In this document: one piece after another, positions 106-9,994 of the stretch
Position numbering within the stretch: position 1 is the stretch's first letter
Layout of the letters: each line of letters starts with the position of its first letter
Source: a virus
DNA length: 64,000 nt
IMG/VR virus record: IMGVR_UViG_3300046777_001715
Span: 1 to 64,000 of that record
Direction: 5' to 3' (one strand)
Notes under the pieces: generated by a model
Databases searched by the model: none
Told to the model about the DNA's origin: nothing
What the model saw: the letters and a program-made list of their open reading frames with translations, nothing else
Position numbers and translations under genes: made by a program

Positions 106-262
106 GATCAAAATACCCTTCTGCCCACAGGCCATCTAGGAATTCTCCAGCTTTAACTAAATAGTTATGAATTGCAGGATGTTCATCTGCATTAATTAAG
201 AGGTCGGCAGAGTTAATGCCATAAGACATATCTGCTAAATCCCTTGATGTATAACCTAACAT
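98..262 (-). CDS. Hypothetical 54-aa protein
   Basis: An open frame from ATG 262 to TGA 100-98 begins MLGYTSRDLADMSYGINSAD. It is coupled to the upstream gene through a TAATG junction, so ribosomes finishing that gene can restart here. It is soluble and acidic, with no membrane segment or recognisable motif. The coupling and the lack of any gap are the support for calling it real. Confidence 0.6.
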   Translation of the reverse strand: MLGYTSRDLADMSYGINSADLLINADEHPAIHNYLVKAGEFLDGLWAEGYFDHA

Positions 263-492
263 TATTTCTCCTCATCCCACTCTATGTAATATTGGTCTTC
301 AGGTTTCAAATCATAAAACTGATTAAATCTACCTTTTAGATAATTGCTTTCACACATTTCAGCAAATCTATAATCTGCATATAGTTGGCCTTCATCTAAA
401 TTAGAATTAACCCATTCCTCTACTAGTTGTTCACCAATATAAGAATATTCTGCGTCTATTACCATTTGATTTTCATTTTCTAAGAAACTCAT
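262..492 (-). CDS. Hypothetical acidic 76-aa protein
   Basis: The protein is strongly acidic (ends DEEK) and rich in Tyr, Glu and Asn. It has no cysteine pair, signal or membrane segment. Its ATG overlaps the TGA of the upstream DUF1281-type gene (ATGA), so the two are probably translated together. No family is recognised. Confidence 0.7.
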   Translation of the reverse strand: MSFLENENQMVIDAEYSYIGEQLVEEWVNSNLDEGQLYADYRFAEMCESNYLKGRFNQFYDLKPEDQYYIEWDEEK

Positions 493-1262
493 GCTTCCAC
501 CTTTTCTGTAGATTCCAATAATACACTATGGGTCTGACATTCTTTCATAGCCTCATCATCTTGCCAAGAACCCTCATTGCATTCTGAGCAGAATTGACCA
601 CAATCATTTTCACAATACTCAACACAATCAAAAGATTGGCAAGCATAGCAACGATTCTCATATTCTAGAATAGTTTTAACATCACCACGGACAATCTCAT
701 ATTCCCCACCCCAGCCTGTTTCCTCTTCATACTCTAATGTGAGCAGGCAGTTAGGAACAAGATTACTTAGTTTAGTTAGAATAGTTACAGCAGGTGACCA
801 TGCAGTCTCATATTTATATACAAGCCAGTTATCATCACCTTCTGATTTATATTCAAGTAATTCTGTATTAGAATACTCTTCGCCGTCACGGACGGCTACA
901 TCCCATTTAGTTCCCCAGTTGGTATTATTCCATGAATACCAATCTTTAGATACTTTAGCAATTTCAATAGATTTAGCAAACCAATTAGGGTCATTTGTAT
1001 CTAGACCTGTGCGGTCAGGCTGGCAGGCATACTCCTCATCAGTAATGCCGTCATCCTTATATGAGTGGATATTAAAGAAAGCAAAGACAGGATTATTATA
1101 TTCAACCTGCTTAATTTTGGTGGGGAAGCCTGAAGAACTAATATCACCCATACCATATGTCTCTTGTGCTAATACAAATGGCTTATTCAATCTATCTTTA
1201 ATCATATCTACCTCAGACTTAGGTCCTTGGATAGTTAATGTGTTATAACACCAATTTGGCAT
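489..1262 (-). CDS. DUF1281/YubB ferredoxin-like-domain protein
   Basis: This 257-residue protein opens with MPNWCYNTLTIQGP, the characteristic start of the DUF1281/YubB (Api92-like) ferredoxin-fold family found on plasmids and phages, whose role is unknown. A central Trp-rich region (residues about 90-140: WFAKS, WYSWNN, WGTKWD) is also typical. The C-terminus adds a cysteine-rich tail near residues 205-230 (CYACQSFDC, CENDCGQFCSEC) that could bind zinc and is less usual for the family. The start is fixed by a good Shine-Dalgarno (GAAAGGA) and by the TGTCAG/TATAAT promoter just upstream. Confidence 0.8.
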   Translation of the reverse strand: MPNWCYNTLTIQGPKSEVDMIKDRLNKPFVLAQETYGMGDISSSGFPTKIKQVEYNNPVFAFFNIHSYKDDGITDEEYACQPDRTGLDTNDPNWFAKSIEIAKVSKDWYSWNNTNWGTKWDVAVRDGEEYSNTELLEYKSEGDDNWLVYKYETAWSPAVTILTKLSNLVPNCLLTLEYEEETGWGGEYEIVRGDVKTILEYENRCYACQSFDCVEYCENDCGQFCSECNEGSWQDDEAMKECQTHSVLLESTEKVEA

Positions 1263-1289
1263 TTTATATCCTTTCGTTGATATGACCTA

Positions 1290-1311
1290 ATTATATATTA
1301 GAGCACTGACA
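1290..1311 (-). promoter_or_regulatory. Early promoter, TGTCAG-N10-TATAAT
   Basis: On the minus strand TGTCAG (1311-1306) is followed by exactly 10 bases and a perfect TATAAT (1295-1290). It precedes the DUF1281-type gene and its AACGAAAGG ribosome-binding block. TAGACA lies upstream as a possible -35 element with an 18-base spacer. Confidence 0.8.
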
Positions 1312-1330
1312 AATGTCTATAGAATATCCG

Positions 1331-1346
1331 TGTGATTCACACCACA
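1331..1346. promoter_or_regulatory. Crp-like site TGTGATTCACACCACA
   Basis: This matches TGTGA-N6-TCACA with one change in the right half (CCACA). The right-half variant CCACA recurs at 7247 and, as CCACT, at 9609. Its centre is 32.5 bases from the TGTCAG box, close to three helical turns. Overlapping it, 1330-1342 reads GTGTGATTCACAC, a perfect palindrome. Confidence 0.6.
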
Positions 1347-1441
1347 TGATCTCAAAGCTTGAGAATTCCTGTGAATTTACTTGACCGTCTTAAATACCTT
1401 ATGCTATCCTCAGTCTTTTGCGGGCTTCCTGGCAAAAAGTT

Positions 1442-1474
1442 GGGGCCCTAGCAGTCTCTCCTCTGCTGGGCCCC
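1442..1474 (-). terminator. Rho-independent terminator, leftward
   Basis: GGGGCCC(T)AGCAG pairs with CTGCTGGGCCCC across an 8-base loop, with one bulged base. Read on the minus strand the stem is followed by AACTTTTTG, a U-tract. It lies between the end of the 116-aa gene and the promoter of the DUF1281-type gene, where a leftward stop is expected. Confidence 0.75.
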
Positions 1475-1579
1475 TGGCGTTTGGCTGCATCCACACTATG
1501 CATATTTAAAGACTTGGCCGAAAGGGTGACCTGATAGCCTTACCAAACTATTTATGTTGAATTTATATTATATCATATC

Positions 1580-1930
1580 CTAGTTAACTGGAATTGTTGA
1601 ACCAAGGTGATACGCAATAAACTCCTCAAAACTGTGACCGTCAATCATTTTGTTAACCATGTCGATTTCAACTGTGAAATCCCATGCTGCAAAATCAGAC
1701 GGCTTAGCAACGGCACCAATTCCAAATCCTGTTTCTTGGTCCCATTCGCTTCCAATTAATTTACTAATGATGTTACGTATAGCATATGATGTGTCTTGCC
1801 AACGTGGACGTGCATGCATTAAAGCATTAGCAATGTCTATTTGCCAATCTGTCTCGCCCCAATGACTGTACAGCCATACTGCAGGTTCTTCAGCGCCTTC
1901 GTTGAAGAGATAATTAATCCGTGCTCCCAT
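1580..1930 (-). CDS. Hypothetical 116-aa protein
   Basis: A globular acidic protein starting MGARINYLFNEGAEEPAVWL, with several Trp residues and no signal, membrane segment or cysteine cluster. It overlaps the 3' end of the upstream zinc-binding gene by 17 bases and is followed by the terminator at 1442-1474, so it is the last gene of its transcript. No family is recognised with confidence. Confidence 0.75.
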   Translation of the reverse strand: MGARINYLFNEGAEEPAVWLYSHWGETDWQIDIANALMHARPRWQDTSYAIRNIISKLIGSEWDQETGFGIGAVAKPSDFAAWDFTVEIDMVNKMIDGHSFEEFIAYHLGSTIPVN

Positions 1931-2114
1931 TTGTTACTTCCGCCTTTTCTGAGTTGATGATGTGTGCTAATTCTACAATCTCGTAGGACCACTTGTCAAG
2001 AGCATCTTTAAACTCATTGTAGTGGTGCCCACAAAAGAATAGGTCCCCTGCTAATCCCTTAGCTTGGTATAAAGCTTGTGCTGTTTCGCATTTGTCGCAG
2101 CCTTGCCATGTCAT
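1914..2114 (-). CDS. DUF7455-like small zinc-binding protein
   Basis: The 66 residues begin MTWQGCDKCETAQALYQAKG and continue to LFFCGHH. This C-x2-C ... C-G-H-H arrangement is the pattern of DUF7455, a small zinc-ribbon family common in actinobacteria and their phages. The start at 2114 is chosen because its ATG overlaps the upstream TGA (ATGA); an in-frame upstream start at 2159 would add an unlikely Arg-rich leader lying within the neighbouring gene. The molecular role is unknown. Confidence 0.75.
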   Translation of the reverse strand: MTWQGCDKCETAQALYQAKGLAGDLFFCGHHYNEFKDALDKWSYEIVELAHIINSEKAEVTNGSTD

Positions 2115-2257
2115 AGAGTTCCGCCTTCTATCATTTCCGAAAGACGATCTAAGATCCATGAGTCAATGTCAGCGATATCAATCTCTGATAACTTCTCCAT
2201 GATTTCTTCACGAGCAAACTTGTACCCGTCATCAAAACCGTCTTTATAGTCCGACAT
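2111..2257 (-). CDS. Hypothetical 48-aa protein (MSDYKDGFDDGY type)
   Basis: A short acidic protein that begins MSDYKDGFDDGYKFAREEIM and is probably mostly alpha-helical. The repeated D-G-[FY] start resembles short proteins seen in actinophages, but this is from memory and no function is known. It ends in an ATGA overlap with the DUF7455-like gene. Confidence 0.7.
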   Translation of the reverse strand: MSDYKDGFDDGYKFAREEIMEKLSEIDIADIDSWILDRLSEMIEGGTL

Positions 2258-2258
2258 T

Positions 2259-2471
2259 TTATCTCCCTGTGTATCCTGTTGCCTCGTACTCGCTTACATA
2301 TGATTCTGATAGATTATATTTATCACGAATGCGGCTTACTTTCTCAATACTACCAGTTCCAATATTGAATGTCAATGGTGTCATTGCCTGCGGGTCTAGC
2401 CCTGTGATTTGTGCATCCCAATAGGCCCTCTCCATGGAGAGCCTATCGGGAGCGGTGAGTTCAAAGTACAT
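2259..2471 (-). CDS. Hypothetical 70-aa protein
   Basis: It starts MYFELTAPDRLSMERAYWDA at a TAATG junction with the upstream gene. The sequence looks globular, with a hydrophobic and Tyr-rich C-terminal part, and no known motif. The gap to the next gene downstream is a single base, so it belongs to the same transcript. Confidence 0.75.
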   Translation of the reverse strand: MYFELTAPDRLSMERAYWDAQITGLDPQAMTPLTFNIGTGSIEKVSRIRDKYNLSESYVSEYEATGYTGR

Positions 2472-2938
2472 TATGCTTCTCTCACATGACAGATTTCAAT
2501 GTCGCCAATTTCAATACGACCTGACTGTGAATCAACATACAGATTATCTGTAACTTCATCTTCAAGGTCATTACCCCAATCAGAAAGCAAATCAATTTCC
2601 ATTGTTCCGCTAACTTCGATTGTGCAAGTAAATTCAACCTGACGTGTTAGTTCAATATCAAGCGCTTCAGCAATTGCACGTAGAGTTTCTTGGTCCTCTG
2701 ATTCTGAATATGCTTCAGTGATAATATCTTTAACTAAACTAATCTTGTTAGTTAGAACGCCGTTAGTCTTCTGAGCCTGACGAGCATTGTGTAGGTCCCA
2801 TTCAAGGCTGGAAACCTTGGCGGTTGTAAATTCAGGGTCGGAGTAACCATGAATCACCTTATATGTAACTAGTAGATTAGGATTGTATTCCACTGCAGGT
2901 GAATGCAATGCATCCGAACCAATTGTTGTTTCTTCCAT
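2471..2938 (-). CDS. Nested internal-start product (C-terminal domain alone)
   Basis: ATG 2938 is in frame inside the larger gene and begins MEETTIGSDALHSPAVEYNP. It has its own early promoter (2970-2991) and an AACGAAAGAGGAAC ribosome-binding block of the kind used by other genes here. A 155-residue product would result. Either a formerly separate gene lost its upstream stop codon, or the locus deliberately makes two nested products. Confidence 0.6.
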   Translation of the reverse strand: MEETTIGSDALHSPAVEYNPNLLVTYKVIHGYSDPEFTTAKVSSLEWDLHNARQAQKTNGVLTNKISLVKDIITEAYSESEDQETLRAIAEALDIELTRQVEFTCTIEVSGTMEIDLLSDWGNDLEDEVTDNLYVDSQSGRIEIGDIEICHVREA

Positions 2939-3142
2939 TTGTTCCTCTTTCGTTGTGGTTGTAGGTTGAATTGTAGCATGCTCCACTGACACCAATGTAG
3001 TATCTCTACCACATGGGCATGTGAGCTTTGTCACACCAGATGGGAATCCAAATCCATCTGATGATGTTAGTTCAATTAAACAATCACATTCATCTGGGTC
3101 ACAGACAAACGTGTACTTACTTGACATTAATTCATTTGACAT
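2471..3142 (-). CDS. Two-part protein: N-terminal zinc-ribbon-like region plus conserved phage domain
   Basis: From ATG 3142 the frame encodes 223 residues. The first 60 contain CDPDECDC and later CPCG, a probable zinc-binding module. A Thr/Glu linker (PTTTTKEEQ) follows, then a second domain from about residue 69. The ATG lies 7 bases after a perfect TATAAT, so the transcript is probably leaderless. An internal promoter and ribosome-binding site sit at the linker (see 2471-2938), so the second domain may also be made alone. Function is unknown. Confidence 0.75.
   Translation of the reverse strand: MSNELMSSKYTFVCDPDECDCLIELTSSDGFGFPSGVTKLTCPCGRDTTLVSVEHATIQPTTTTKEEQMEETTIGSDALHSPAVEYNPNLLVTYKVIHGYSDPEFTTAKVSSLEWDLHNARQAQKTNGVLTNKISLVKDIITEAYSESEDQETLRAIAEALDIELTRQVEFTCTIEVSGTMEIDLLSDWGNDLEDEVTDNLYVDSQSGRIEIGDIEICHVREA
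2970..2991 (-). promoter_or_regulatory. Early promoter embedded in coding sequence, TGTCAG-N10-TACAAT
   Basis: TGTCAG (2991-2986), 10 bases, then TACAAT (2975-2970) lies inside the frame of the 223-aa gene and upstream of the internal start at 2938. Same exact spacing as the intergenic copies. Confidence 0.7.
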
Positions 3143-3149
3143 GCCGAGA

Positions 3150-3171
3150 ATTATACACCACCCCACTGACA
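3150..3171 (-). promoter_or_regulatory. Early promoter, TGTCAG-N10-TATAAT, leaderless
   Basis: TGTCAG (3171-3166) and TATAAT (3155-3150) with the standard 10-base gap. The ATG at 3142 is only 7 bases beyond the -10 box, so transcription would start at or next to the start codon. A weak half-matching Crp-like word (TGTGA at 3187) lies upstream. Confidence 0.75.
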
Positions 3172-3272
3172 TTTACAAGGAAATCCTGTGAAATTTTTAC
3201 GTGTCCCGTATGAGCTTGGTCACATCCTCAATATATTGCGGGCGTCTCATTATGTGAAACAAATTGTCTTGC

Positions 3273-3344
3273 GATTCGTACGGGATTTGAACCCGTGATC
3301 TCTACCGTGACAGGGTAGCGCTTTAACCACTAAGCTAACGAACC
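3273..3344 (-). tRNA. tRNA-Asp (anticodon GTC)
   Basis: The minus strand folds into a full cloverleaf. The acceptor stem GGTTCGT pairs with ACGAATC (one G-U). The anticodon stem CTACC/GGTAG encloses loop CTGTCAC, giving anticodon GTC, and the T arm is ACGGG-TTCAAAT-CCCGT. The D arm carries the usual AGTGGTTA. The length is 72 bases and no CCA is encoded. It lies alone between the DUF932 gene terminator and the next early promoter and would be co-transcribed leftward. Confidence 0.93.
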
Positions 3345-3351
3345 AAATAGA

Positions 3352-3377
3352 AACGGGGGAGATTTCTCTCCCCCGTT
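3352..3377. terminator. Terminator hairpin after the DUF932 gene
   Basis: AACGGGGGAGA pairs perfectly with TCTCCCCCGTT around a 4-base loop. On the minus strand it is followed by TCTATTTGG, only a weak U-tract, then the tRNA. It may end DUF932 transcription or act as a processing stem ahead of the tRNA. Confidence 0.65.
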
Positions 3378-3388
3378 AAATCATTTAG

Positions 3389-4393
3389 TTAAAATGATTT
3401 TACTAACTTGAGAATTTTATTTTTCTCAGCAGTTAGAACAGGGTCAAATCCTGATGCACCAGCCATTAGCGATTCAGAATTGCCACGACCAGAGCGGTAG
3501 TAATCAAGGCGTTCAGTGATTGCATTAAATGCACCCCACTTTGTTCCCTTGATTGTAGAATTCGTTGGTGAATTGTGGTAAAGGTCATCAAGCAAAACAA
3601 CCTTGTTTTCCCACTTCTTCATTGCACCCTTCAAATCCTTATCAGGCTTTGGATAGATTGTCTGAATCAACTTTGAAAATTCAGCATCGGTGATTGCTTG
3701 ATTAAACAAGCCCTGAGCCTCTTTTTCAAATTCATCAAAGTATCCAAGAGCAAGACCAAGAGTCTCACGAGCAACTTGAATGCGACCTTCAACAGATTGT
3801 GTGTGGCGAATCTTGAAAGATTGCTTAGCACTCTTCATTGCAAGGTTTAGAGTATTTTGGCAAACAACACGAACAGGTGTAACCGCTGCCTGAACAGCAA
3901 CAGAACCATCGTGTGATGTCCAAACAATGAGATATAGTTTTGTCTCATCATTTGCGCCTTGTGGGTCAAGAACCATTGTGCGAGGAATATCTACAGTTCC
4001 AAACACAACTTTGCCCTTCTTAAGAGAACCAGCAGATTCCCAACGGCAATCAGCATTGGCATCGTGAATTGCATCAGCAAATGCAAATAATTCTTCATTC
4101 TGCACAGGCTTGTAACGCTTGCCAACAGTAGCAAGAACATCAGTCCCGCCATTAAATGGATTAGTGCGTAACACTAAAGAAGATTGAGAAACATCGTTAA
4201 ATGATTCTGGAATATGCTCAGTGATTGGAGACAAGCGAACATTCCAGTTGGAAAGTTTAGCCTCATCGAGCATTGTTTGAGTAGTTACATCTTCATCTTT
4301 ATTGAAGATGCGATTGGCAAGATTATGCCAAGCAGGAGCACCACGAAGCGCAAACGCAACTTCGCCATTTTCTATTTCTAGATTGTGAGCCAT
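3389..4393 (-). CDS. DUF932 (TIGR03299) phage/plasmid-like protein
   Basis: The 334-residue sequence opens MAHNLEIENGEVAFALRGAP followed by AWHNL, the signature start of the TIGR03299/DUF932 family widespread on plasmids and phages. The length is normal for the family and the internal VVCQNTLN stretch is also typical. The function is not established; relatives often sit in early or plasmid-maintenance regions. It has its own promoter (4424-4445) and a strong AACGAAAGG ribosome-binding site, and a terminator follows it, so it is likely transcribed as a single gene and well expressed. Confidence 0.9.
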   Translation of the reverse strand: MAHNLEIENGEVAFALRGAPAWHNLANRIFNKDEDVTTQTMLDEAKLSNWNVRLSPITEHIPESFNDVSQSSLVLRTNPFNGGTDVLATVGKRYKPVQNEELFAFADAIHDANADCRWESAGSLKKGKVVFGTVDIPRTMVLDPQGANDETKLYLIVWTSHDGSVAVQAAVTPVRVVCQNTLNLAMKSAKQSFKIRHTQSVEGRIQVARETLGLALGYFDEFEKEAQGLFNQAITDAEFSKLIQTIYPKPDKDLKGAMKKWENKVVLLDDLYHNSPTNSTIKGTKWGAFNAITERLDYYRSGRGNSESLMAGASGFDPVLTAEKNKILKLVKSF

Positions 4394-4423
4394 TTTTTGT
4401 CCTTTCGTTTAGTTGATTTGGCA

Positions 4424-4445
4424 ATTATAACAGGTCGCACTGACA
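4424..4445 (-). promoter_or_regulatory. Early promoter, TGTCAG-N10-TATAAT
   Basis: TGTCAG (4445-4440) then TATAAT (4429-4424), driving the DUF932 gene. A TAGACA word just upstream gives an additional -35-like element with a 17-base spacer, making this the most complete copy in the window. Confidence 0.85.
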
Positions 4446-4483
4446 TTGTCTAGATTAGTTAGTCATTTGTCCGAATTGATCCG

Positions 4484-4499
4484 TGTGAGTAATCTCACA
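4484..4499. promoter_or_regulatory. Crp-like site TGTGAGTAATCTCACA
   Basis: A perfect TGTGA-N6-TCACA palindrome, with the outer arms extended to TGTGAG/CTCACA. Its centre is 51.5 bases upstream of the TGTCAG box, about five helical turns. Confidence 0.75.
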
Positions 4500-4511
4500 A
4501 ATTTTCAGGGT

Positions 4512-4541
4512 TGTGGATAACTGGTCGTAACCTGTGGATAA
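4512..4541. other. Two DnaA-box-like motifs in direct repeat
   Basis: TGTGGATAA occurs at 4512-4520 and 4533-4541, 21 bases apart, so on the same face of the helix. Its complement TTATCCACA is the classical DnaA-box consensus. They sit between a Crp-like site and a GCGGG hairpin. Confidence 0.55.
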
Positions 4542-4543
4542 CC

Positions 4544-4561
4544 CCCGCACATAGTTGCGGG
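4544..4561 (-). terminator. CCCGCA/TGCGGG hairpin
   Basis: A 6-bp GC stem with a 6-base loop, one of four near-identical hairpins in the early intergenic gaps. It has no U-tract, so it may be a weak or factor-assisted terminator for the upstream 138-aa gene or part of the replication-like cassette. A perfect TCTCACA-T-TGTGAGA palindrome (4564-4578) and further small stems (TGAGCA/TGCTCA; ATCGTT/AACGAT at 4656-4674) fill the rest of the gap. Confidence 0.5.
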
Positions 4562-4679
4562 CATCTCACATTGTGAGAACGCTATCTCGATCTCAGCTGG
4601 CGGCAGCCCCGAAGGGTTGAGCAGTTTGGCGACTTGCTCAGGTCGTTCGCAATTTATCGTTATGCGAGAACGATTTTAT

Positions 4680-5096
4680 TTAGAGATACTTAGCAATTTG
4701 CTTCATAGTAGAAGCATTTACTGTTTCCTCATCTGTCATCTTGAGAATTGTTAGGGCATTTGTGATGTCCTCTTTCATCTCACGATAAGTGTGCTGATGG
4801 ATAATCTCAAAATCCTTTTCAGGCTCTTTAGGAAAATCAGTTTCCTTTGTGATGATGTCAAAATCAACATTGAGAGTGTTGTTCCATTGACGATAGTTTG
4901 TGCGAAGGTTCTCAGACTTTGCGAAGTTTGCGATAGCCCACTTGCCAATTTCTTTCTGCCACTTTTCACGGGCTTTCTGATACTTGGCTTCGTTTGCTTC
5001 TTGTGAAGCATAGTCTTTTTCTAGTGTTGCTAGGCGAGTTTCTAGTGCCTTGATTACCTTTGGTGTTGCCACCTTTACTGTGATTGCTCTACTCAT
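4680..5096 (-). CDS. Hypothetical 138-aa coiled-coil-like protein
   Basis: A highly charged, Lys/Glu-rich protein beginning MSRAITVKVATPKVIKALET. Residues 15-50 look like a coiled coil and no cysteine or membrane segment is present. It has its own promoter (5128-5149) and the AACGAAAGG ribosome-binding block, then a 286-bp regulatory gap downstream, so it is probably a single-gene transcript. Function is not recognised; a DNA- or protein-binding accessory role would be a guess. Confidence 0.75.
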   Translation of the reverse strand: MSRAITVKVATPKVIKALETRLATLEKDYASQEANEAKYQKAREKWQKEIGKWAIANFAKSENLRTNYRQWNNTLNVDFDIITKETDFPKEPEKDFEIIHQHTYREMKEDITNALTILKMTDEETVNASTMKQIAKYL

Positions 5097-5127
5097 TTCT
5101 TACCTTTCGTTTGTGTGTTTGGAGAGT

Positions 5128-5149
5128 ATTTTATCAGAGGGGTCTGACA
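5128..5149 (-). promoter_or_regulatory. Early promoter, TGTCAG-N10-TAAAAT
   Basis: TGTCAG (5149-5144) then TAAAAT (5133-5128). Only a half-conserved Crp-like word (TGTGA at 5157) lies upstream. Confidence 0.75.
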
Positions 5150-5223
5150 AAAAGTGTGTGAGGGTTCTTACTTACGACATTGGGCGAGGACTCCCTCTAA
5201 ACTGCCCCTGTTTCGCTAGTTAA

Positions 5224-5400
5224 TTAAACTAGAGCCGAATTGCTAACTGTTGTCCAACGAGTTTCTTTCGTTGGCATTTCCAGTAGCACTCGCACCGAGC
5301 CAGATGCGTTAGGAATAATCTCCTTGATTACTCCAGTTTTCTTTGACTTTAAGGTTGTGAATAAATCGCCAACCTTGTAAGTGTATCCATTTACTGTCAT
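5224..5400 (-). CDS. Hypothetical 58-aa KOW/SH3-like small protein
   Basis: The product MTVNGYTYKVGDLFTTLKSK continues with a Gly-containing beta-strand pattern, reminiscent of small SH3/KOW-like barrels that bind nucleic acid or protein; this is only a resemblance. The start at 5400 is preferred over 5436 because the -10 box lies at 5427-5432 and a clear AGAAAGGAAG ribosome-binding site precedes 5400. Confidence 0.65.
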   Translation of the reverse strand: MTVNGYTYKVGDLFTTLKSKKTGVIKEIIPNASGSVRVLLEMPTKETRWTTVSNSALV

Positions 5401-5426
5401 TTTGCTTCCTTTCTTGTTAGGGTAGT

Positions 5427-5448
5427 ATTTTAGCATAGGGGTCTGACA
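5427..5448 (-). promoter_or_regulatory. Early promoter, TGTCAG-N10-TAAAAT
   Basis: TGTCAG (5448-5443) then TAAAAT (5432-5427). A perfect Crp-like palindrome lies 31.5 bases upstream of the box. Confidence 0.8.
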
Positions 5449-5466
5449 TTTATCAAGCCCCTAGAG

Positions 5467-5482
5467 TGTGAGTTATCTCACA
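5467..5482. promoter_or_regulatory. Crp-like site TGTGAGTTATCTCACA
   Basis: A perfect TGTGAG-TTAT-CTCACA palindrome overlapping the stop codon of the 90-aa gene, so the site also encodes its last residue. Three helical turns from the next promoter box. Confidence 0.75.
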
Positions 5483-5750
5483 ATACTTCGGGCAACCAAG
5501 CGTCCAAGTGGTGGGCGTCTATAATTGCAGATGCAGGGCAAGAGGTCTTACCTTTCCAAGTAATGTCATCAGGTAGAGGTATCTCACGATCAAAATCCTC
5601 CTCATAGTATGCGTCAATAGCGTCTATGCAAGGTTGCACCATAGCAAGGGGAACGGGAGGGTAATGATTAGAGCGGAGATGAATACCAATAGCCATTTCT
5701 AAATCTAATTCTAATTCCTCAGATAAATCTAATGCTGTATTGTAACCCAT
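5478..5750 (-). CDS. Hypothetical 90-aa acidic protein
   Basis: It starts MGYNTALDLSEELELDLEMA and contains HYPPVP and DITWKGK stretches, with no signal or membrane segment. It follows the 68-aa gene by 3 bases and is co-transcribed with it from the promoter at 5985-6006. No family is recognised. Confidence 0.75.
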   Translation of the reverse strand: MGYNTALDLSEELELDLEMAIGIHLRSNHYPPVPLAMVQPCIDAIDAYYEEDFDREIPLPDDITWKGKTSCPASAIIDAHHLDAWLPEVL

Positions 5751-5753
5751 TTA

Positions 5754-5960
5754 TTACTCCCCCCAACTTACTTTGGCGTATGAATTGTTTGCGTTAATCT
5801 TATCTAATGCACCAATACTATCTAATGCACCTGTAAATACGCCACTAAGTAAATCATTTAATTCTTTTTCAGAATAATTTACTAGAGCGGTTAAGACATA
5901 ATCAGGCATTGTTTTTTCATCAAAATCAACGCTGACTTTTACATTGTGTGTGAGTTTCAT
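5754..5960 (-). CDS. Hypothetical 68-aa protein
   Basis: A small soluble acidic protein beginning MKLTHNVKVSVDFDEKTMPD. A strong AACGAAAGGG ribosome-binding block and the early promoter at 5985-6006 fix the start. It is the first gene of a two-gene transcript; function unknown. Confidence 0.75.
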   Translation of the reverse strand: MKLTHNVKVSVDFDEKTMPDYVLTALVNYSEKELNDLLSGVFTGALDSIGALDKINANNSYAKVSWGE

Positions 5961-5984
5961 TTTTTCCCTTTCGTTATGGTCGCT

Positions 5985-6006
5985 ATTTTACACTACCCCA
6001 CCGACA
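5985..6006 (-). promoter_or_regulatory. Early promoter, TGTCGG-N10-TAAAAT
   Basis: TGTCGG (6006-6001), the G variant of the box, then TAAAAT (5990-5985). Its Crp-like site at 6040 is the only strong one not on a whole helical turn (46.5 bases). Confidence 0.75.
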
Positions 6007-6039
6007 TTTACAATTTCTGCATCGGCGTGTCGCAGCTTT

Positions 6040-6055
6040 TGTGATATTTCTCACA
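6040..6055. promoter_or_regulatory. Crp-like site TGTGATATTTCTCACA
   Basis: Perfect TGTGA-N6-TCACA. It heads the repeated cassette of palindrome, DnaA-box pair and GCGGG hairpin. Confidence 0.7.
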
Positions 6056-6065
6056 ATTCCCGTGT

Positions 6066-6097
6066 TTATCCACAGCCCCACTTAAACCTGTGGATAA
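6066..6097. other. Inverted pair of DnaA-box-like motifs
   Basis: TTATCCACAG (6066-6075) and CTGTGGATAA (6088-6097) are perfect inverted repeats separated by 12 bases. They could bind DnaA as an inverted pair or form a cruciform or RNA hairpin. Confidence 0.55.
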
Positions 6098-6098
6098 C

Positions 6099-6116
6099 CC
6101 CGCAAAAGACTGCGGG
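6099..6116 (-). terminator. CCCGCA/TGCGGG hairpin
   Basis: Second copy of the short GC hairpin, immediately after the DnaA-box pair and before the 32-aa membrane-protein gene end. No U-tract. Confidence 0.45.
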
Positions 6117-6118
6117 CC

Positions 6119-6217
6119 TCACCTCAGCTTTGTCAACATGTAAATGACTAATAAAATTGGTGTACATAAGAATGCAATAATACCAATTGCAAACACGGTA
6201 CCAAGGAATTCATACAT
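6119..6217 (-). CDS. Tiny 32-aa single-pass membrane protein
   Basis: ATG 6217 opens MYEFLGTVFAIGIIAFLCTP and continues as one hydrophobic helix (about residues 4-27) with a short basic tail (KLR). Its start forms a TAATG junction with the GP88 gene, so it is translationally coupled to it. A role at the host membrane is likely, but nothing more can be said. Confidence 0.6.
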   Translation of the reverse strand: MYEFLGTVFAIGIIAFLCTPILLVIYMLTKLR

Positions 6218-6936
6218 TATTTTTTACTCGCAGAAAATCGAATGTCTGACTTACCATAAACACATAGGCCACATGAAACACATGCGGACCCTGCATTGCT
6301 AATAAGTGGAATAGACTTATTATTTTCAGGACACTTAGCACCAGGCTTTCCAGTCAATTCTTTCATTGTGCTTTCAGTTGCGGCGAATGTCTTCCCTAAA
6401 TATGCAAGGCGGATACTAGAATTTAATTTAAGGTCATGAGCAATTTCTTTATTGTCGTCATCGGTAGAATAATAAAGAGATAGATTAGAGATATCCTTAA
6501 GAATAAGCGCTGCAGACTTTACACGAGTATAAACCCAGAATTGAACATCCGCATGATCATTAATTACATTCTTCCAGGCATACGTATAGAAATCATTAAA
6601 GAAATCTCCGTCCCAGTGGATACGGAATAACATCGGTGCGTCTTTCTTTACACAATCAGCCTTGAAATCAATAATCATTTCATTAAGCAATTGATACATG
6701 GTCTCCATGTCTGCATTGCGTAGGAGCTCCCAGTTATGAAGAAGATTAGTTTTTACTCCAGGGAAGAGTTTTTCAAGCTTTCCCGCATAGCAGACGCTTT
6801 CGCACACGCTAGTGGCACCAGGACAGGAGAAAGCCTTGCCTGCAGGTAATCCAAAAGTATTAGCAATAGCGGCTTGCTTTCCATTTTTTGTGACAAGGTT
6901 AGCCACCTTTCTATCATTAGAACGTTTTAATTTCAT
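6217..6936 (-). CDS. GP88-family phage protein (cysteine-rich)
   Basis: 239 residues with the hallmarks of the actinophage 'gene product 88' family: an N-terminal CPGATSVCESVCYAGK (Cys 38, 45, 49), a central R-x-H-x-D-G-D-F motif, and a C-terminal CVSCGLC cluster (Cys 219, 222, 225). The cysteine spacing suggests a metal or iron-sulfur site; the activity is not known to me. The start at 6936 is chosen because a perfect TATAAT ends 7 bases upstream, giving a leaderless mRNA; upstream in-frame ATGs at 6966 and 7014 lie outside the transcript. Confidence 0.85.
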   Translation of the reverse strand: MKLKRSNDRKVANLVTKNGKQAAIANTFGLPAGKAFSCPGATSVCESVCYAGKLEKLFPGVKTNLLHNWELLRNADMETMYQLLNEMIIDFKADCVKKDAPMLFRIHWDGDFFNDFYTYAWKNVINDHADVQFWVYTRVKSAALILKDISNLSLYYSTDDDNKEIAHDLKLNSSIRLAYLGKTFAATESTMKELTGKPGAKCPENNKSIPLISNAGSACVSCGLCVYGKSDIRFSASKK

Positions 6937-6943
6937 GGGGGTA

Positions 6944-6965
6944 ATTATAGCGGTTAGGTCTGACA
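6944..6965 (-). promoter_or_regulatory. Early promoter, TGTCAG-N10-TATAAT, leaderless
   Basis: TGTCAG (6965-6960) then TATAAT (6949-6944). The GP88 ATG begins 7 bases after the -10 box. The promoter lies directly after the stop of the 66-aa gene and has no Crp-like site. Confidence 0.8.
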
Positions 6966-6967
6966 TA

Positions 6968-7168
6968 TTAGTAATCCTCATCCATTCCAAATCCAGCGGA
7001 AGCAAGAGCGTCATTATCAGCCCATCCAGTTAATTCATAGAATGAAACTTCATCAGCGTCATAGCAAGAAGCACACAAGAAGTCATCCTGATAATAACCA
7101 TATTCATATGCGTCCATTAGGATATAATCAGCGCAATTATCGCCAGTGCAAAATACTTTGTATTCCAT
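6968..7168 (-). CDS. Hypothetical 66-aa acidic zinc-ribbon-like protein
   Basis: Starts MEYKVFCTGDNCADYILMDA and later has CASC: two cysteine pairs (C-x4-C and C-x2-C) that could hold one zinc. The rest is Asp/Glu/Tyr-rich. The start at 7168 fits the ribosome-binding site GAAAGGC and the promoter at 7198-7219. Confidence 0.7.
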   Translation of the reverse strand: MEYKVFCTGDNCADYILMDAYEYGYYQDDFLCASCYDADEVSFYELTGWADNDALASAGFGMDEDY

Positions 7169-7197
7169 TAGTTTGCCTTTCATTTGGAGAGGTTGCA

Positions 7198-7219
7198 ATT
7201 GTAGCAGAATGGACCGACA
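7198..7219 (-). promoter_or_regulatory. Early promoter, TGTCGG-N10-TACAAT
   Basis: TGTCGG (7219-7214) then TACAAT (7203-7198), upstream of the 66-aa gene. Confidence 0.75.
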
Positions 7220-7246
7220 AAATCTAATCGAAATGCTCAAAATTCC

Positions 7247-7262
7247 TGTGATTTATACCACA
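7247..7262. promoter_or_regulatory. Crp-like site TGTGATTTATACCACA
   Basis: Left half perfect, right half CCACA. The centre is 40.5 bases from the promoter box (about four turns). An almost identical word recurs at 9609. Confidence 0.6.
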
Positions 7263-7282
7263 CTCGTAACGACACGCCCGAC

Positions 7283-7299
7283 CCCGCAAAAGCTGCGGG
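7283..7299 (-). terminator. CCCGCA/TGCGGG hairpin
   Basis: Third copy of the short GC hairpin, here without DnaA-box motifs beside it. It follows the end of the 39-aa basic-protein gene. Confidence 0.5.
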
Positions 7300-7313
7300 C
7301 TTTAGTTGAAATT

Positions 7314-7433
7314 TCAATCAGTTTTATTTTTATGTTTTATTTTTCGTGTGTATTTTTTTTTATTGCGAACAGGAGTTGCGGCATTTGATCTCCGCAATTC
7401 CTGAATGCGTTTTATTTTTTCTTTTAAATTCAT
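7314..7433 (-). CDS. Small highly basic 39-aa protein
   Basis: ATG 7433 encodes MNLKEKIKRIQELRRSNAAT followed by a Lys/Arg-rich tail (about 16 basic residues in 39). Such a peptide would be expected to bind nucleic acid. It starts one base after the stop of the 62-aa gene. The A-rich composition lowers certainty, but the frame is open and coupled. Confidence 0.55.
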   Translation of the reverse strand: MNLKEKIKRIQELRRSNAATPVRNKKKYTRKIKHKNKTD

Positions 7434-7434
7434 T

Positions 7435-7623
7435 TTATACCTTTCCAAAAATTGTGTGATAGTTGCTCGCTTCGTGAAATCTTGTTACATCAAATCGAGG
7501 ATTATCTTTTGCAAACATCTCCGCAAAATCTGTTACGACTTTAGAAAATAAAGCAGGGTGAGTTTTTGTGCTCATATAGTTTAGAATTTCTGCGGTTGCC
7601 ACATAGTCTTTTCTTGTCATCAT
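7435..7623 (-). CDS. Hypothetical 62-aa protein
   Basis: Starts MMTRKDYVATAEILNYMSTK at an ATGA overlap with the upstream gene. It looks helical and neutral. The pattern 'RKDY..TAEIL' resembles small helical proteins often seen in actinophages, with no known function. Confidence 0.7.
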   Translation of the reverse strand: MMTRKDYVATAEILNYMSTKTHPALFSKVVTDFAEMFAKDNPRFDVTRFHEASNYHTIFGKV

Positions 7624-7823
7624 TTTACTGCCACCATTCCACTACGATAGAAAACTTTTGTATAGCATTTGCCTGAAGGCGTGTAGAGATTAACTGTTGA
7701 ATATTCGTTAGCCATTCCCCAATCGGTGAATAAGAAAAAGTTTTCCCACGCACCATATTCATTTTCATATTCAGCAGACCAATGAGGGGCGTTGCTATCA
7801 TAAGCGCAAGTTAGTTTATACAT
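7620..7823 (-). CDS. Hypothetical 67-aa protein
   Basis: Tyr/Trp-rich small protein beginning MYKLTCAYDSNAPHWSAEYE, with two cysteines 47 residues apart. It starts at a TAATG junction and ends at an ATGA junction, so it is translationally coupled on both sides. No family recognised. Confidence 0.7.
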   Translation of the reverse strand: MYKLTCAYDSNAPHWSAEYENEYGAWENFFLFTDWGMANEYSTVNLYTPSGKCYTKVFYRSGMVAVK

Positions 7824-7987
7824 TATTCATTTACCCAATCTACTGTTAATTCATCTTCAACATTTGCGATACAATCGCAAGGCTCTACATCATAAGCCAA
7901 TTCATTACCAAAGAAAATAAATCCTGCGCCACCGCATTCATCACATTCAGCAGAAACAATTTCGATTAGTTCTTTTACTTTAGCCAT
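7823..7987 (-). CDS. Small DnaJ-zinc-finger-like 54-aa protein
   Basis: The sequence contains ECDECGGAGFIFFG and later PCDC: a C-x2-C-G-G-x-G knuckle like those in the DnaJ zinc finger, with a second cysteine pair to complete a site. It starts MAKVKELIEI after an AACGAAAGGG block about 5-15 bases upstream. The early promoter at 8017-8038 lies inside the preceding small gene. Confidence 0.7.
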   Translation of the reverse strand: MAKVKELIEIVSAECDECGGAGFIFFGNELAYDVEPCDCIANVEDELTVDWVNE

Positions 7988-8102
7988 TTAGGTTTTCCCT
8001 TTCGTTATTTGTTGAAATTGTAGCAGATAGCACTGACAAGGCTTCCGCTTTTGTTGCTTCACGTTGTGCGATAACGTGAGCCTTGAATTCTTCTAAATTC
8101 AT
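7980..8102 (-). CDS. Hypothetical 40-aa protein containing an embedded promoter
   Basis: ATG 8102 sits in a TAATG junction and encodes MNLEEFKAHVIAQREATKAE followed by 20 residues whose codons include the early promoter at 8017-8038. It overlaps the next gene by 8 bases. The coupled start and open frame support it, but the promoter sequence accounts for half of its 3' end, so confidence is moderate. Confidence 0.5.
   Translation of the reverse strand: MNLEEFKAHVIAQREATKAEALSVLSATISTNNERENLNG
8017..8038 (-). promoter_or_regulatory. Early promoter in coding sequence, TGTCAG-N10-TACAAT
   Basis: TGTCAG (8038-8033) then TACAAT (8022-8017), followed by an AACGAAAGGG block for the 54-aa zinc-finger gene. 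No Crp-like site. Confidence 0.75.
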
Positions 8103-8302
8103 TATTCACCAACCTTTACTGCTAAATAGCGATAAGAATCTTTGAAAGATTTGTGAGGTCTAACCTGCACAAGATAGGTATCGCAATCTGCATACCATAC
8201 CGCAGAAGTTTTTTCTGCGTCAATGATTTCACCTGTAAGGGTGCGGGAATGATAAGTCTTTCCGATAAGAAGACTTTCGACTGTATAGACATTTGCTGAC
8301 AT
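8102..8302 (-). CDS. Hypothetical 66-aa protein
   Basis: Beta-rich small protein starting MSANVYTVESLLIGKTYHSR, with a G-K-T-Y-H-S-R-T-L-T-G-E stretch that looks like a small barrel rather than a P-loop. It has a good AGAAAGG ribosome-binding site and its own promoter at 8337-8358. No family recognised. Confidence 0.7.
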   Translation of the reverse strand: MSANVYTVESLLIGKTYHSRTLTGEIIDAEKTSAVWYADCDTYLVQVRPHKSFKDSYRYLAVKVGE

Positions 8303-8336
8303 TAGTTGTCACCTTTCTTTAGTAATTTATAGGGAG

Positions 8337-8358
8337 ATTGTATCAGTTACTACTGACA
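8337..8358 (-). promoter_or_regulatory. Early promoter overlapping a stop codon, TGTCAG-N10-TACAAT
   Basis: TGTCAG (8358-8353) encodes the last two residues (Cys-Gln) of the 50-aa gene; TACAAT is 8342-8337. Confidence 0.75.
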
Positions 8359-8502
8359 ATTTTGGCAAGGACACGCCTTTAGAGAGAAAAGATATTTTAG
8401 CAATACCTTTTTTTCTGATACTGAAATTTCAGGGTGAAATTGTTTTACCCCACCATTTAGATATTCGTGAGAGATTTTATTTAGAGTTTTTTCAGTGAGC
8501 AT
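8350..8502 (-). CDS. Hypothetical 50-aa protein with C-terminal cysteines
   Basis: ATG 8502, after a strong AAGAAAGGGG site, gives MLTEKTLNKISHEYLNGGVK and a helical basic middle, ending CPCQNCQ. The three clustered cysteines could bind metal. The promoter at 8532-8553 fixes the start. Confidence 0.65.
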   Translation of the reverse strand: MLTEKTLNKISHEYLNGGVKQFHPEISVSEKKVLLKYLFSLKACPCQNCQ

Positions 8503-8531
8503 TTTTGCCCCTTTCTTTTTGTTATGCTGAA

Positions 8532-8553
8532 ATTATAGCCTAAGCCACTGACA
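8532..8553 (-). promoter_or_regulatory. Early promoter, TGTCAG-N10-TATAAT
   Basis: TGTCAG (8553-8548) then a perfect TATAAT (8537-8532). The Crp-like site is 62.5 bases upstream (six turns). Confidence 0.8.
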
Positions 8554-8602
8554 TTTTTCTACTTACTAGCCAGTAATTTCATATTTTGAGACGCTCAAGC
8601 CG

Positions 8603-8618
8603 TGTGATAAATATCACA
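8603..8618. promoter_or_regulatory. Crp-like site TGTGATAAATATCACA
   Basis: Perfect palindrome TGTGAT-AAAT-ATCACA, heading the third full copy of the intergenic cassette. Confidence 0.75.
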
Positions 8619-8630
8619 AGAATTTCAGGG

Positions 8631-8663
8631 TTTTCCACAGGCTGTCTTAAGGGCTGTGGATAA
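8631..8663. other. Inverted pair of DnaA-box-like motifs
   Basis: TTTTCCACAG (one mismatch) at 8631 and a perfect TGTGGATAA at 8655-8663 face each other as at 6066-6097. Confidence 0.5.
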
Positions 8664-8664
8664 C

Positions 8665-8682
8665 CCCGCAGTCTTTTGCGGG
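8665..8682 (-). terminator. CCCGCA/TGCGGG hairpin
   Basis: Fourth copy of the short hairpin, between the 32-aa gene end and the DnaA-box pair. No U-tract. Confidence 0.45.
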
Positions 8683-8715
8683 CCAGCTTGATTTTGTCAA
8701 GCCGACACGCCGTTA

Positions 8716-8814
8716 TTATTTAATTTTTTCTAAAAGTTTTTCTAGTTCTTTTAGTTGCTCTAGATTAAGGTGATCTAGTTGAATAGCTTTTTCAAATCCG
8801 AATTCGTCGCTCAT
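8716..8814 (-). CDS. Hypothetical 32-aa leucine-rich helix
   Basis: MSDEFGFEKAIQLDHLNLEQ continues as a Leu/Lys/Glu heptad-like helix to a double TAA stop. Coupled by TAATG to the upstream membrane-protein gene. It could be a small dimerising peptide; unknown. Confidence 0.55.
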   Translation of the reverse strand: MSDEFGFEKAIQLDHLNLEQLKELEKLLEKIK

Positions 8815-8924
8815 TAATTTAACCCGTTTTCTTTTAGGTCTTTTATTACGGCGATTACTAGCGGGATAGTAACTCCCGCTAGTAGTAATTGGACGGCGGT
8901 AGTTAGTAGACGATTAGTAGTCAT
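8814..8924 (-). CDS. 36-aa single-pass membrane protein
   Basis: MTTNRLLTTAVQLLLAGVTI and on to LVIAVI form one hydrophobic segment of about 20 residues, with a short charged C-terminus (KDLKEN). TAATG junctions couple it on both sides. Small size and one helix would also suit a membrane-targeting accessory peptide. Confidence 0.6.
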   Translation of the reverse strand: MTTNRLLTTAVQLLLAGVTIPLVIAVIKDLKENGLN

Positions 8925-9064
8925 TACTTATTCCTCTTTCTCTTGATTACTGTATAGAGTGTAGCACCTACTACCGACAAGATAATAAACGCCCACGATT
9001 GGGATACATAGAGGAAATCCCCTAGGTCAATCATTAGCCCATAGTCATTTAGTTCAATAGTCAT
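8924..9064 (-). CDS. 46-aa single-pass membrane protein
   Basis: An acidic N-terminus (MTIELNDYGLMIDLGDFLYV) is followed by a hydrophobic helix (WAFIILSVVGATLY) and a basic tail (KRKRNK), so the C-terminus should be cytoplasmic. Codons of the helix contain the early promoter at 8958-8979. Start couples to the upstream stop. Confidence 0.6.
   Translation of the reverse strand: MTIELNDYGLMIDLGDFLYVSQSWAFIILSVVGATLYTVIKRKRNK
8958..8979 (-). promoter_or_regulatory. Early promoter in coding sequence, TGTCGG-N10-TACACT
   Basis: TGTCGG (8979-8974) then TACACT (8963-8958) within the 46-aa gene, followed by AGAAAGAGGAA before the 36-aa membrane-protein gene. Confidence 0.6.
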
Positions 9065-9216
9065 TAGTCATTCCAATCTAGTGTTAGTTCATCTTCATCA
9101 AAAGCATCAAAAGAAATGTCTCCCTTTTGGATAGCGTCTTCCCACGCTAGGTTTTCTTCTATGCCTACATAGGCATCTGCTACATCTGCTTGAATAGTAT
9201 CCCATTTAGACATCAT
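9064..9216 (-). CDS. Hypothetical acidic 50-aa protein
   Basis: Tandem ATGs (9216, 9213) open MMSKWDTIQADVADAYVGIE; the C-terminus is very acidic (DEDELTLDWND). Its end resembles the C-terminus of the 54-aa zinc-finger-like protein at 7823 (EDELTVDWVNE), suggesting shared ancestry of the tail. Function unknown. Confidence 0.6.
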   Translation of the reverse strand: MMSKWDTIQADVADAYVGIEENLAWEDAIQKGDISFDAFDEDELTLDWND

Positions 9217-9389
9217 TACTTGTTATCTCCTGTCTTGATAGATTGAACATTAGCGGAAAACTTTACTTTCTTACCTAGATTGCTAGCATTTAGCGAATCT
9301 ATTAGATGGTCAATAGCCTTCATTTCGTGGGCTACATTGTCAATGCTTAGTAGGCGAGAGCCTTGCCAAATTGAATAAGTTATAGTCAT
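9216..9389 (-). CDS. Hypothetical 57-aa protein
   Basis: MTITYSIWQGSRLLSIDNVA begins a small mixed alpha/beta protein with a basic C-terminal half. It couples to the gene below by TAATG, and lies 4 bases after the 38-aa gene. No family recognised. Confidence 0.6.
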   Translation of the reverse strand: MTITYSIWQGSRLLSIDNVAHEMKAIDHLIDSLNASNLGKKVKFSANVQSIKTGDNK

Positions 9390-9393
9390 TTAT

Positions 9394-9510
9394 TTACTTA
9401 CCTTTCTTATCTTGGAGAGATTTAGCATAGTCTACATCAGAGACGGCGGTAGCACCAAACTCCTCATAGATTTCTAGATAGATTTCATCATAGTATTCGT
9501 TATAGTCCAT
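9394..9510 (-). CDS. Hypothetical 38-aa acidic protein
   Basis: MDYNEYYDEIYLEIYEEFGA followed by a short Lys-rich end. Tyr/Glu-rich. First gene after the promoter at 9559-9580, with an AAAGAAGG ribosome-binding site, which supports the start. Confidence 0.6.
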   Translation of the reverse strand: MDYNEYYDEIYLEIYEEFGATAVSDVDYAKSLQDKKGK

Positions 9511-9558
9511 TATTAGACCTTCTTTCTTTTAGTTAGTTAGTTATTTAGTTATGAGAGA

Positions 9559-9580
9559 AGACTAGCAGAGTAGTCCGACA
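9559..9580 (-). promoter_or_regulatory. Early promoter (weak -10), TGTCGG-N10-TAGTCT
   Basis: TGTCGG (9580-9575) then TAGTCT (9564-9559): the box and spacing are conserved although the -10 is poor. Confidence 0.6.
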
Positions 9581-9608
9581 ATTACAAGGCGACACGCTAC
9601 CCTGTGGG

Positions 9609-9624
9609 TGTGATTTATACCACT
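9609..9624. promoter_or_regulatory. Crp-like site TGTGATTTATACCACT
   Basis: Identical to the 7247 site in 15 of 16 positions; overlaps the stop of the 75-aa gene. Centre 41.5 bases from the next promoter box. Confidence 0.55.
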
Positions 9625-9850
9625 ATTCCCAAGAGCGGGTAGTAGCATAGACTACACGCTTACTAGGCTTATAGTTTTCTAATTCTTTTAGAGAACACTC
9701 TAGGATAGTGCCTCTTTCTGCTAGTAGGTCTAGCATTTCATTAGCAGAGTGTTCATCTTTTACGAGAACACCTAGACAAGTTCCAAACTCTTTAGAGAGA
9801 GGATACTCAGGGTTAGTATTGTATTCTATTTTATAACTTAGTGAGAACAT
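9623..9850 (-). CDS. Hypothetical 75-aa protein
   Basis: MFSLSYKIEYNTNPEYPLSK leads a small beta/alpha protein with two cysteines. The start follows a strong AGAAAGGAG site and the first early promoter of the leftward run (9887-9908), so it is likely the promoter-proximal gene. Function unknown. Confidence 0.75.
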   Translation of the reverse strand: MFSLSYKIEYNTNPEYPLSKEFGTCLGVLVKDEHSANEMLDLLAERGTILECSLKELENYKPSKRVVYATTRSWE

Positions 9851-9886
9851 TTTGTTCTCCTTTCTTTTGTTTATCTTATGTATAGA

Positions 9887-9908
9887 ATACTAACATAGAC
9901 CACTGACA
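9887..9908 (-). promoter_or_regulatory. Early promoter, TGTCAG-N10-TAGTAT
   Basis: TGTCAG (9908-9903) then TAGTAT (9892-9887), the rightmost copy of the leftward promoter series. Confidence 0.7.
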
Positions 9909-9946
9909 TTTTGACCTGTTTTTCGGGCGTGTCGCAAAACTATTTT

Positions 9947-9962
9947 TGTGAAGTGCATCACA
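9947..9962. promoter_or_regulatory. Crp-like site TGTGAAGTGCATCACA
   Basis: Perfect TGTGA-N6-TCACA in the divergent gap between leftward and rightward genes; 51.5 bases from the leftward promoter box. Confidence 0.7.
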
Positions 9963-9985
9963 CAGATAATGGGCGCACTATACAG

Positions 9986-9994
9986 TTATCCACA
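9986..9994. other. DnaA-box-like motif TTATCCACA
   Basis: A single perfect copy in the divergent gap between the two strands, next to the AT-rich stretch 10,015-10,060. Confidence 0.5.

Follow-up and report, generated by a model that had tools for sequence, protein, structure and literature searches.

Crp-like palindromes in helical register upstream of probable early promoters in a group of viruses attributed to freshwater actinobacteria

The viral DNA considered here is a stretch of 64,000 nucleotides (the window), comprising positions 1 to 64,000 of the IMG/VR virus record IMGVR_UViG_3300046777_001715, which has 106,256 bases and a G+C content of 38.6%. Within its first 10 kilobases (kb), the window contains a series of palindromes of the form TGTGA-N6-(T/C)CAC(A/T). 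These have the consensus of a Crp dimer site, are found in a fixed association with a distinctive type of promoter, and are held in helical register with it, even where the length of the intervening spacer changes. The palindromes are probably sites for the Crp/GlxR protein of an actinobacterial host, and the dimer bound upstream in the proper phase would help the host RNA polymerase at the phage promoters. This suggests that a widespread group of freshwater actinobacterial viruses may borrow a host regulator to switch on its genes.

The exact pattern was searched for in the window, and distances were taken from the centre of each site to the 5′ base of the promoter box TGTCRG. The search gave 15 strand matches against 0.53 expected, a number reached in 0 of 100 shuffles. 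An earlier note on this DNA had listed eight sites with their distances, and all of them were reproduced exactly; its distances ran to the 3′ end of TGTCRG, so that each is 5 base pairs (bp) shorter when taken to the 5′ base, while the relative phase is independent of the reference base chosen. These sites are TGTGATTCACACCACA at 1331..1346 (27.5 bp from the box at 1311), TGTGAGTAATCTCACA at 4484..4499 in the promoter of the DUF932 gene (46.5 bp, box at 4445), TGTGAGTTATCTCACA at 5467..5482 (26.5 bp, box at 5448), TGTGATATTTCTCACA at 6040..6055 (41.5 bp, box at 6006), TGTGATTTATACCACA at 7247..7262 (35.5 bp, box at 7219), TGTGATAAATATCACA at 8603..8618 (57.5 bp, box at 8553), TGTGATTTATACCACT at 9609..9624 (36.5 bp, box at 9580), and TGTGAAGTGCATCACA at 9947..9962 (46.5 bp, box at 9908). 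Two further sites had been overlooked, and both are also in phase: the perfect TGTGAGCTTTGTCACA at 3020..3035, located inside the minus-strand open reading frame (ORF) 2471-3172 and 36.5 bp from the box at 2991, and TATGAGCTTGGTCACA at 3209..3224, with one mismatch and 45.5 bp from the box at 3171. Taken alone, the eight sites give R = 0.67 at a period of 10.5 with a permutation p of 0.026, or 0.046 when the period is left free between 9.5 and 11. Since p values of about 0.03-0.05 come from only eight sites, phasing is marginal in the window by itself and an inference from it suggestive only.

The phasing becomes decisive in the relatives, where the search for phased sites had been named in advance as a check. 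A set of 80 IMG/VR loci was collected by their DUF932 protein, without regard to sites. Among the perfect TGTGA-N6-TCACA palindromes of these loci, 295 of 316 unique sites precede a TGTC(A/G)G-N10-TANNNT promoter by 20-70 bp; these intervals make up about 4% of the DNA, and hence about 4% would be expected by chance. The reversed control motif has no sites in the 80 loci. When up to one mismatch is allowed, a site is present at 873 of the 1,470 unique promoters, versus 16 for the reversed motif. The centre-to-box distances peak at 26.5, 36.5, 46.5, 56.5, and 66.5 bp with near-empty gaps in between, plus a class at 41.5 bp that is half a turn out of register. Outside this half-turn class R reaches 0.88, and the best period is 10.1-10.2. 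A separate search of the whole of IMG/VR, in which the gap was 31 wide, yielded the same comb of distances, and the composite pattern occurs across the database in at least 120 stretches, versus 12 for the reversed control. With a wider gap range, a sharp lower limit appears at 25.5 bp and the signal fades beyond 68 bp. Therefore, the phased sites at promoters are confirmed as an observation and the register is kept in the 80 loci, although the period is nearer to 10.1-10.2 than to the 10.5 first proposed.

A register of this kind could be the mere consequence of common descent, if promoter cassettes had been duplicated together with their spacers. Many spacers are indeed homologous within promoter groups, and single-linkage clustering places 595 of 826 in one family. 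However, orthologous promoters (grouped by downstream protein) differ from each other by steps of about 10 bp in which the phase is retained; in one group, for instance, the distances are 26.5 (21), 36.5 (7), and 46.5 bp (47). On the DUF932 tree, parsimony counts about 68 changes of distance class over 14 promoter groups, a figure that recombination may inflate and that includes a few changes to or from ‘other’ distances. Spacers of unrelated sequence converge on equal lengths, and with one value per family in 30 conservative spacer families, obtained after over-merging, R is still 0.735 (p about 1e-7). The leader lengths of the same promoters show no comparable ten-base rhythm. Common descent is thus unlikely as a full explanation, and the idea that it accounts for the register by itself is scarcely credible; selection for helical register is the only explanation found.

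Regarding the protein that reads the sites, their consensus, with a flexible N6 and A/T-rich flanks, is the Crp consensus of both E. coli and M. tuberculosis CRP (PMC4117774), in agreement with the Crp-type dimer site claimed in the earlier note. PF00027 (cNMP-binding) was not found in this phage or in 27 related records, which may be incomplete, nor was HTH_Crp_2 (PF13545) found in the record of this phage. A phage-encoded Crp was rejected on these grounds, and for the lack of a Crp-family gene the binder is most likely the host Crp/GlxR, which may act as an upstream, class I-like activator. It is also conceivable that the palindromes are recognized by a phage-encoded regulator of a different fold, which would serve as a stage switch by turning the early promoters on or off. 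The phage encodes a WhiB homologue as well as numerous small early proteins that are uncharacterised, and the sites are specific to the clade, being absent from its Streptomyces relatives. Such a regulator is nevertheless unlikely: the motif is exactly that of Crp, down to the N6 and the flanks, the domain searches revealed no Crp-fold protein, and a TGTGA palindrome would be an unlikely target for the WhiB of the phage. An RNA hairpin or terminator was rejected as well; the half-sites do not covary, which argues against a hairpin, and the register runs to the promoter.

In the mechanism proposed, a host Crp/GlxR dimer would occupy a particular face of the helix, some 54-95 bp before the transcription start, and would help the host RNA polymerase, probably via the alpha C-terminal domain (the contact used in class I activation), so that TGTCRG / extended -10 phage promoters would be used soon after DNA entry. 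Two features of class I promoters are found in the sequences, namely a Crp consensus palindrome located wholly upstream of the core promoter and permitted positions that recur with the helical period, the 41.5/42.5 class excepted. Assuming a start 7 nucleotides after the -10 box, the predicted site centres are -54.5, -64.5, -74.5, -84.5, and -94.5, with the half-turn class at -69.5. In M. tuberculosis, CRP sites include -55.5, -57.5, -58.5, -62.5, -69.5, and -95.5 relative to the start; activation is associated there with upstream sites, and repression with sites close to the start (PMC4117774). Given the upstream placement of the phage sites, activation by host Crp is the best reading, in which cyclic AMP (cAMP) or carbon state may have a role. 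The same host protein might instead bind in order to repress, or act architecturally, with the early genes held off until the carbon state changes. A precedent exists in phage T1, whose pir, dam, and recE promoters are repressed by cAMP-CRP (PMC6737242), and phasing matters for looping or architectural effects too. Nonetheless, the sites avoid the core promoter and the start (of the 817 in the exact-site set, just 7 are less than 25 bp from the box), and this, together with the activating tendency of upstream sites in M. tuberculosis, renders repression improbable.

Several points weigh against activation by host Crp. Measured against the E. coli class I optima of -61.5, -71.5/-72.5, and -82.5, the predicted centres are shifted by 2-3 bp; in E. 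coli, some activation is still seen at -64.5, but it is weaker (PMC6301791). A site is missing from about 40% of the promoters. The -35 is not weaker in promoters with sites (3.49 matches, versus 3.01 without) and the -10 only slightly so (5.01 versus 5.18); a weak core, as a sign of activator dependence, is therefore unsupported. The position -54.5 is not known to be an activating one in E. coli. Finally, the early region of the Streptomyces relatives has no Crp-like sites beyond chance, yet Streptomyces does have Crp. The class I assignment made previously holds for the upstream placement, the phasing, and the likely host protein, and less well for the exact positions.

The promoters themselves have a characteristic structure. 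On the minus strand of window positions 1-10 kb there are 17 TGTC(A/G)G-N9-11-TANNNT promoters, in a region whose genes have the same orientation; the rest of the record is almost devoid of promoters of this kind. Those with a Crp-like site, all on the minus strand, include four of the form TGTCAG-N10-TATAAT, at 1290..1311 (ORF 489-1262), 3150..3171 (ORF 2471-3172), 4424..4445 (DUF932 ORF 3389-4393), and 8532..8553. The others are TGTCAG-N10-TACAAT at 2970..2991, TGTCAG-N10-TAAAAT at 5427..5448 (ORF 5224-5400), TGTCGG-N10-TAAAAT at 5985..6006 (ORF 5754-5960), TGTCGG-N10-TACAAT at 7198..7219, TGTCGG-N10-TAGTCT at 9559..9580, and TGTCAG-N10-TAGTAT at 9887..9908 (ORF 9623-9850). At the DUF932 promoter, the site is at 45.5/46.5 in all 81 copies analysed. 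The consensus of the 1,470 unique clade promoters, aaaTGTCRGT(G/C)(G/C)...TGnTAnAAT, is that of an extended -10 promoter in which the TGTC element precedes the predicted start by about 28 bp; TGTCRG and TA...T were imposed by the promoter search, while AAA and TGn were not. The Streptomyces relatives (left ends of NootNoot and Karimac) have TGTCCY-N10-TAGACT at the equivalent place in the early region, that is, TGTC in the promoter spacer and N10 before the -10 box, with TGTCCY there and TGTCRG here. This indicates that the TGTC element probably predates the Crp-like sites. A sigma factor with a new -35 box was discarded, since no Sigma70_r4 domain is present in the phage and TGTC sits within the usual 17-18 bp spacer, with a degenerate -35 also present. 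A search for the same composite promoter in host chromosomes gave six scattered matches in 257 gigabases, none actinobacterial by title.

The site at 6040 is half a turn out of register. The earlier note had left its distance (46.5 to the 3′ end, 41.5 to the 5′ base) as a stray eighth value; the value was reproduced, but in the relatives it belongs to a real second class, which comprises 71 unique clade promoters with a distance of 41.5 or 42.5 bp, or 8% of the site-bearing ones. In 70 of these 71, either GACACGCC is found in the spacer, in most cases 17 nucleotides before the box, or an element described as A(A/T)GTC or TGTCC lies immediately next to the Crp-like site. Not one of the 712 in-phase promoters has the abutting element, while GACACGCC is also present in some of them (39 of 238 at 46.5). 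In the window, GACACGCC lies on the minus strand at two places: at 6024..6031 it belongs to the half-turn promoter and precedes the 6006 box by 17 nucleotides, and at 9926..9933 it has the same spacing to the box at 9908. The half-turn class may have only two or three independent origins, and for this reason the third element is a lead rather than proof of a bridging factor. The spacers of relatives also contain CGGACA/TGTCCG at a few fixed positions; these elements and GACACGCC all have a TGTC/GACA core.

The same promoters are accompanied by DnaA boxes. The 64-kb window has six perfect TTATCCACA boxes, every one of them within 4512-9994 and beside one of four Crp-like sites: 4512..4520 and, 21 bp from it, 4533..4541 (both minus strand), 6066..6074 (plus), 6089..6097 (minus), 8655..8663 (minus), and 9986..9994 (plus). 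A near-perfect box is found at 8631, and boxes are often paired about 21 bp apart. The 80 loci contain 366 TTATCCACA boxes versus 10 for the reversed word; perfect boxes accompany 134 of 502 promoters with a Crp-like site versus 2 of 346 without. They are mostly located 23.5-26.5 and 43.5-47.5 bp from the site centre, in several promoter groups, and are present in 80 of 81 copies of the DUF932 promoter. The early regions of four Streptomyces relatives have none. As a tentative possibility, the early promoters might be composites with several inputs, where host DnaA, host Crp, and a factor binding TGTC/GACA are arranged at set helical phases: first a pair of DnaA boxes separated by about 21 bp, next Crp at about 24.5 bp, and then the phased core promoter. 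The timing of the phage take-over would then depend on host replication and carbon state, and in the half-turn class the third factor would be required as a bridge.

Concerning kinship, the nearest named relatives are Streptomyces phages of the Stanwilliamsviridae (NootNoot, Karimac, BillNye), with 51% protein identity for the DUF932 ORF, 57% for the capsid, and 60% for the portal. Both groups have a common gene order and proteins 50-60% identical, including the transglycosylase-glycosyltransferase-ribonucleotide reductase (RNR) order of BillNye; by sequence comparison, rather than formal taxonomy, the homologous capsid, portal, and early module in the same order establish the kinship. The differences concern the early region, which in the Streptomyces phages lacks both the Crp-like sites and the DnaA boxes. 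Genes at 262-9850 are leftward, opposite to the structural genes, and have their counterpart in the left-end module of NootNoot. The early-type promoters of NootNoot are repeated near its right end at a constant offset (1307/121606, 8202/128501, and 9231/129530), as expected of a terminal repeat. From this correspondence and those promoters we infer that the 262-9850 genes are early. A leftward tRNA-Asp gene lies inside this module at 3271-3344. The phage also has a DnaB-like helicase, a primase, and RecA, with no integrase seen among the proteins scanned; a 527-amino-acid protein at record positions 104340-105923 matches a phage family annotated as tryptophan halogenase. The WhiB homologue indicates an actinobacterial host. 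The relatives come from sample sets that we take to be mostly freshwater, and the G+C content is low. Taken together, these features would suit a freshwater actinobacterium as host, for example one of the ‘Ca. Nanopelagicales’ (PMC10202952).

Among known systems, the closest arrangement is the class I CRP-dependent promoter of E. coli (lac type), with TGTGA-N6-TCACA upstream of a sigma70-type promoter and a periodicity of about one turn (PMC6301791). The arrangement described here differs in its shifted predicted positions, with one class at -54.5, in a half-turn class tied to a third element, in the TGTCRG spacer element combined with an extended -10, and in belonging to a phage and not to a chromosome. 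The M. tuberculosis Rv3676 and C. glutamicum GlxR regulons share the palindrome, and in M. tuberculosis the distance from CRP sites to the starts downstream of them is comparable (PMC4117774); in the available parts of the sources, no phage promoters are among those described for these regulons, nor is such strict phasing. Control of phage promoters by host CRP is already known in E. coli phage T1, where cAMP-CRP acts by repression on a lysogeny switch (PMC6737242). The proposed likeness is that host metabolic state would be read through host CRP; here, in contrast, repeated upstream sites precede many putative early promoters. No report of Crp-like sites in actinophage promoters was found in a literature search that was not exhaustive.

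The geometry of Crp activation has been little studied in the actinobacterial phylum, and more than 800 unique natural promoters provide an evolutionary record of workable activator-promoter spacings. If the proposal is true, abundant freshwater actinophages would have handed control of an entire module of genes, probably early ones, to a global regulator of the host, and infection of some of the most common bacteria in lakes would be coupled to their carbon state.

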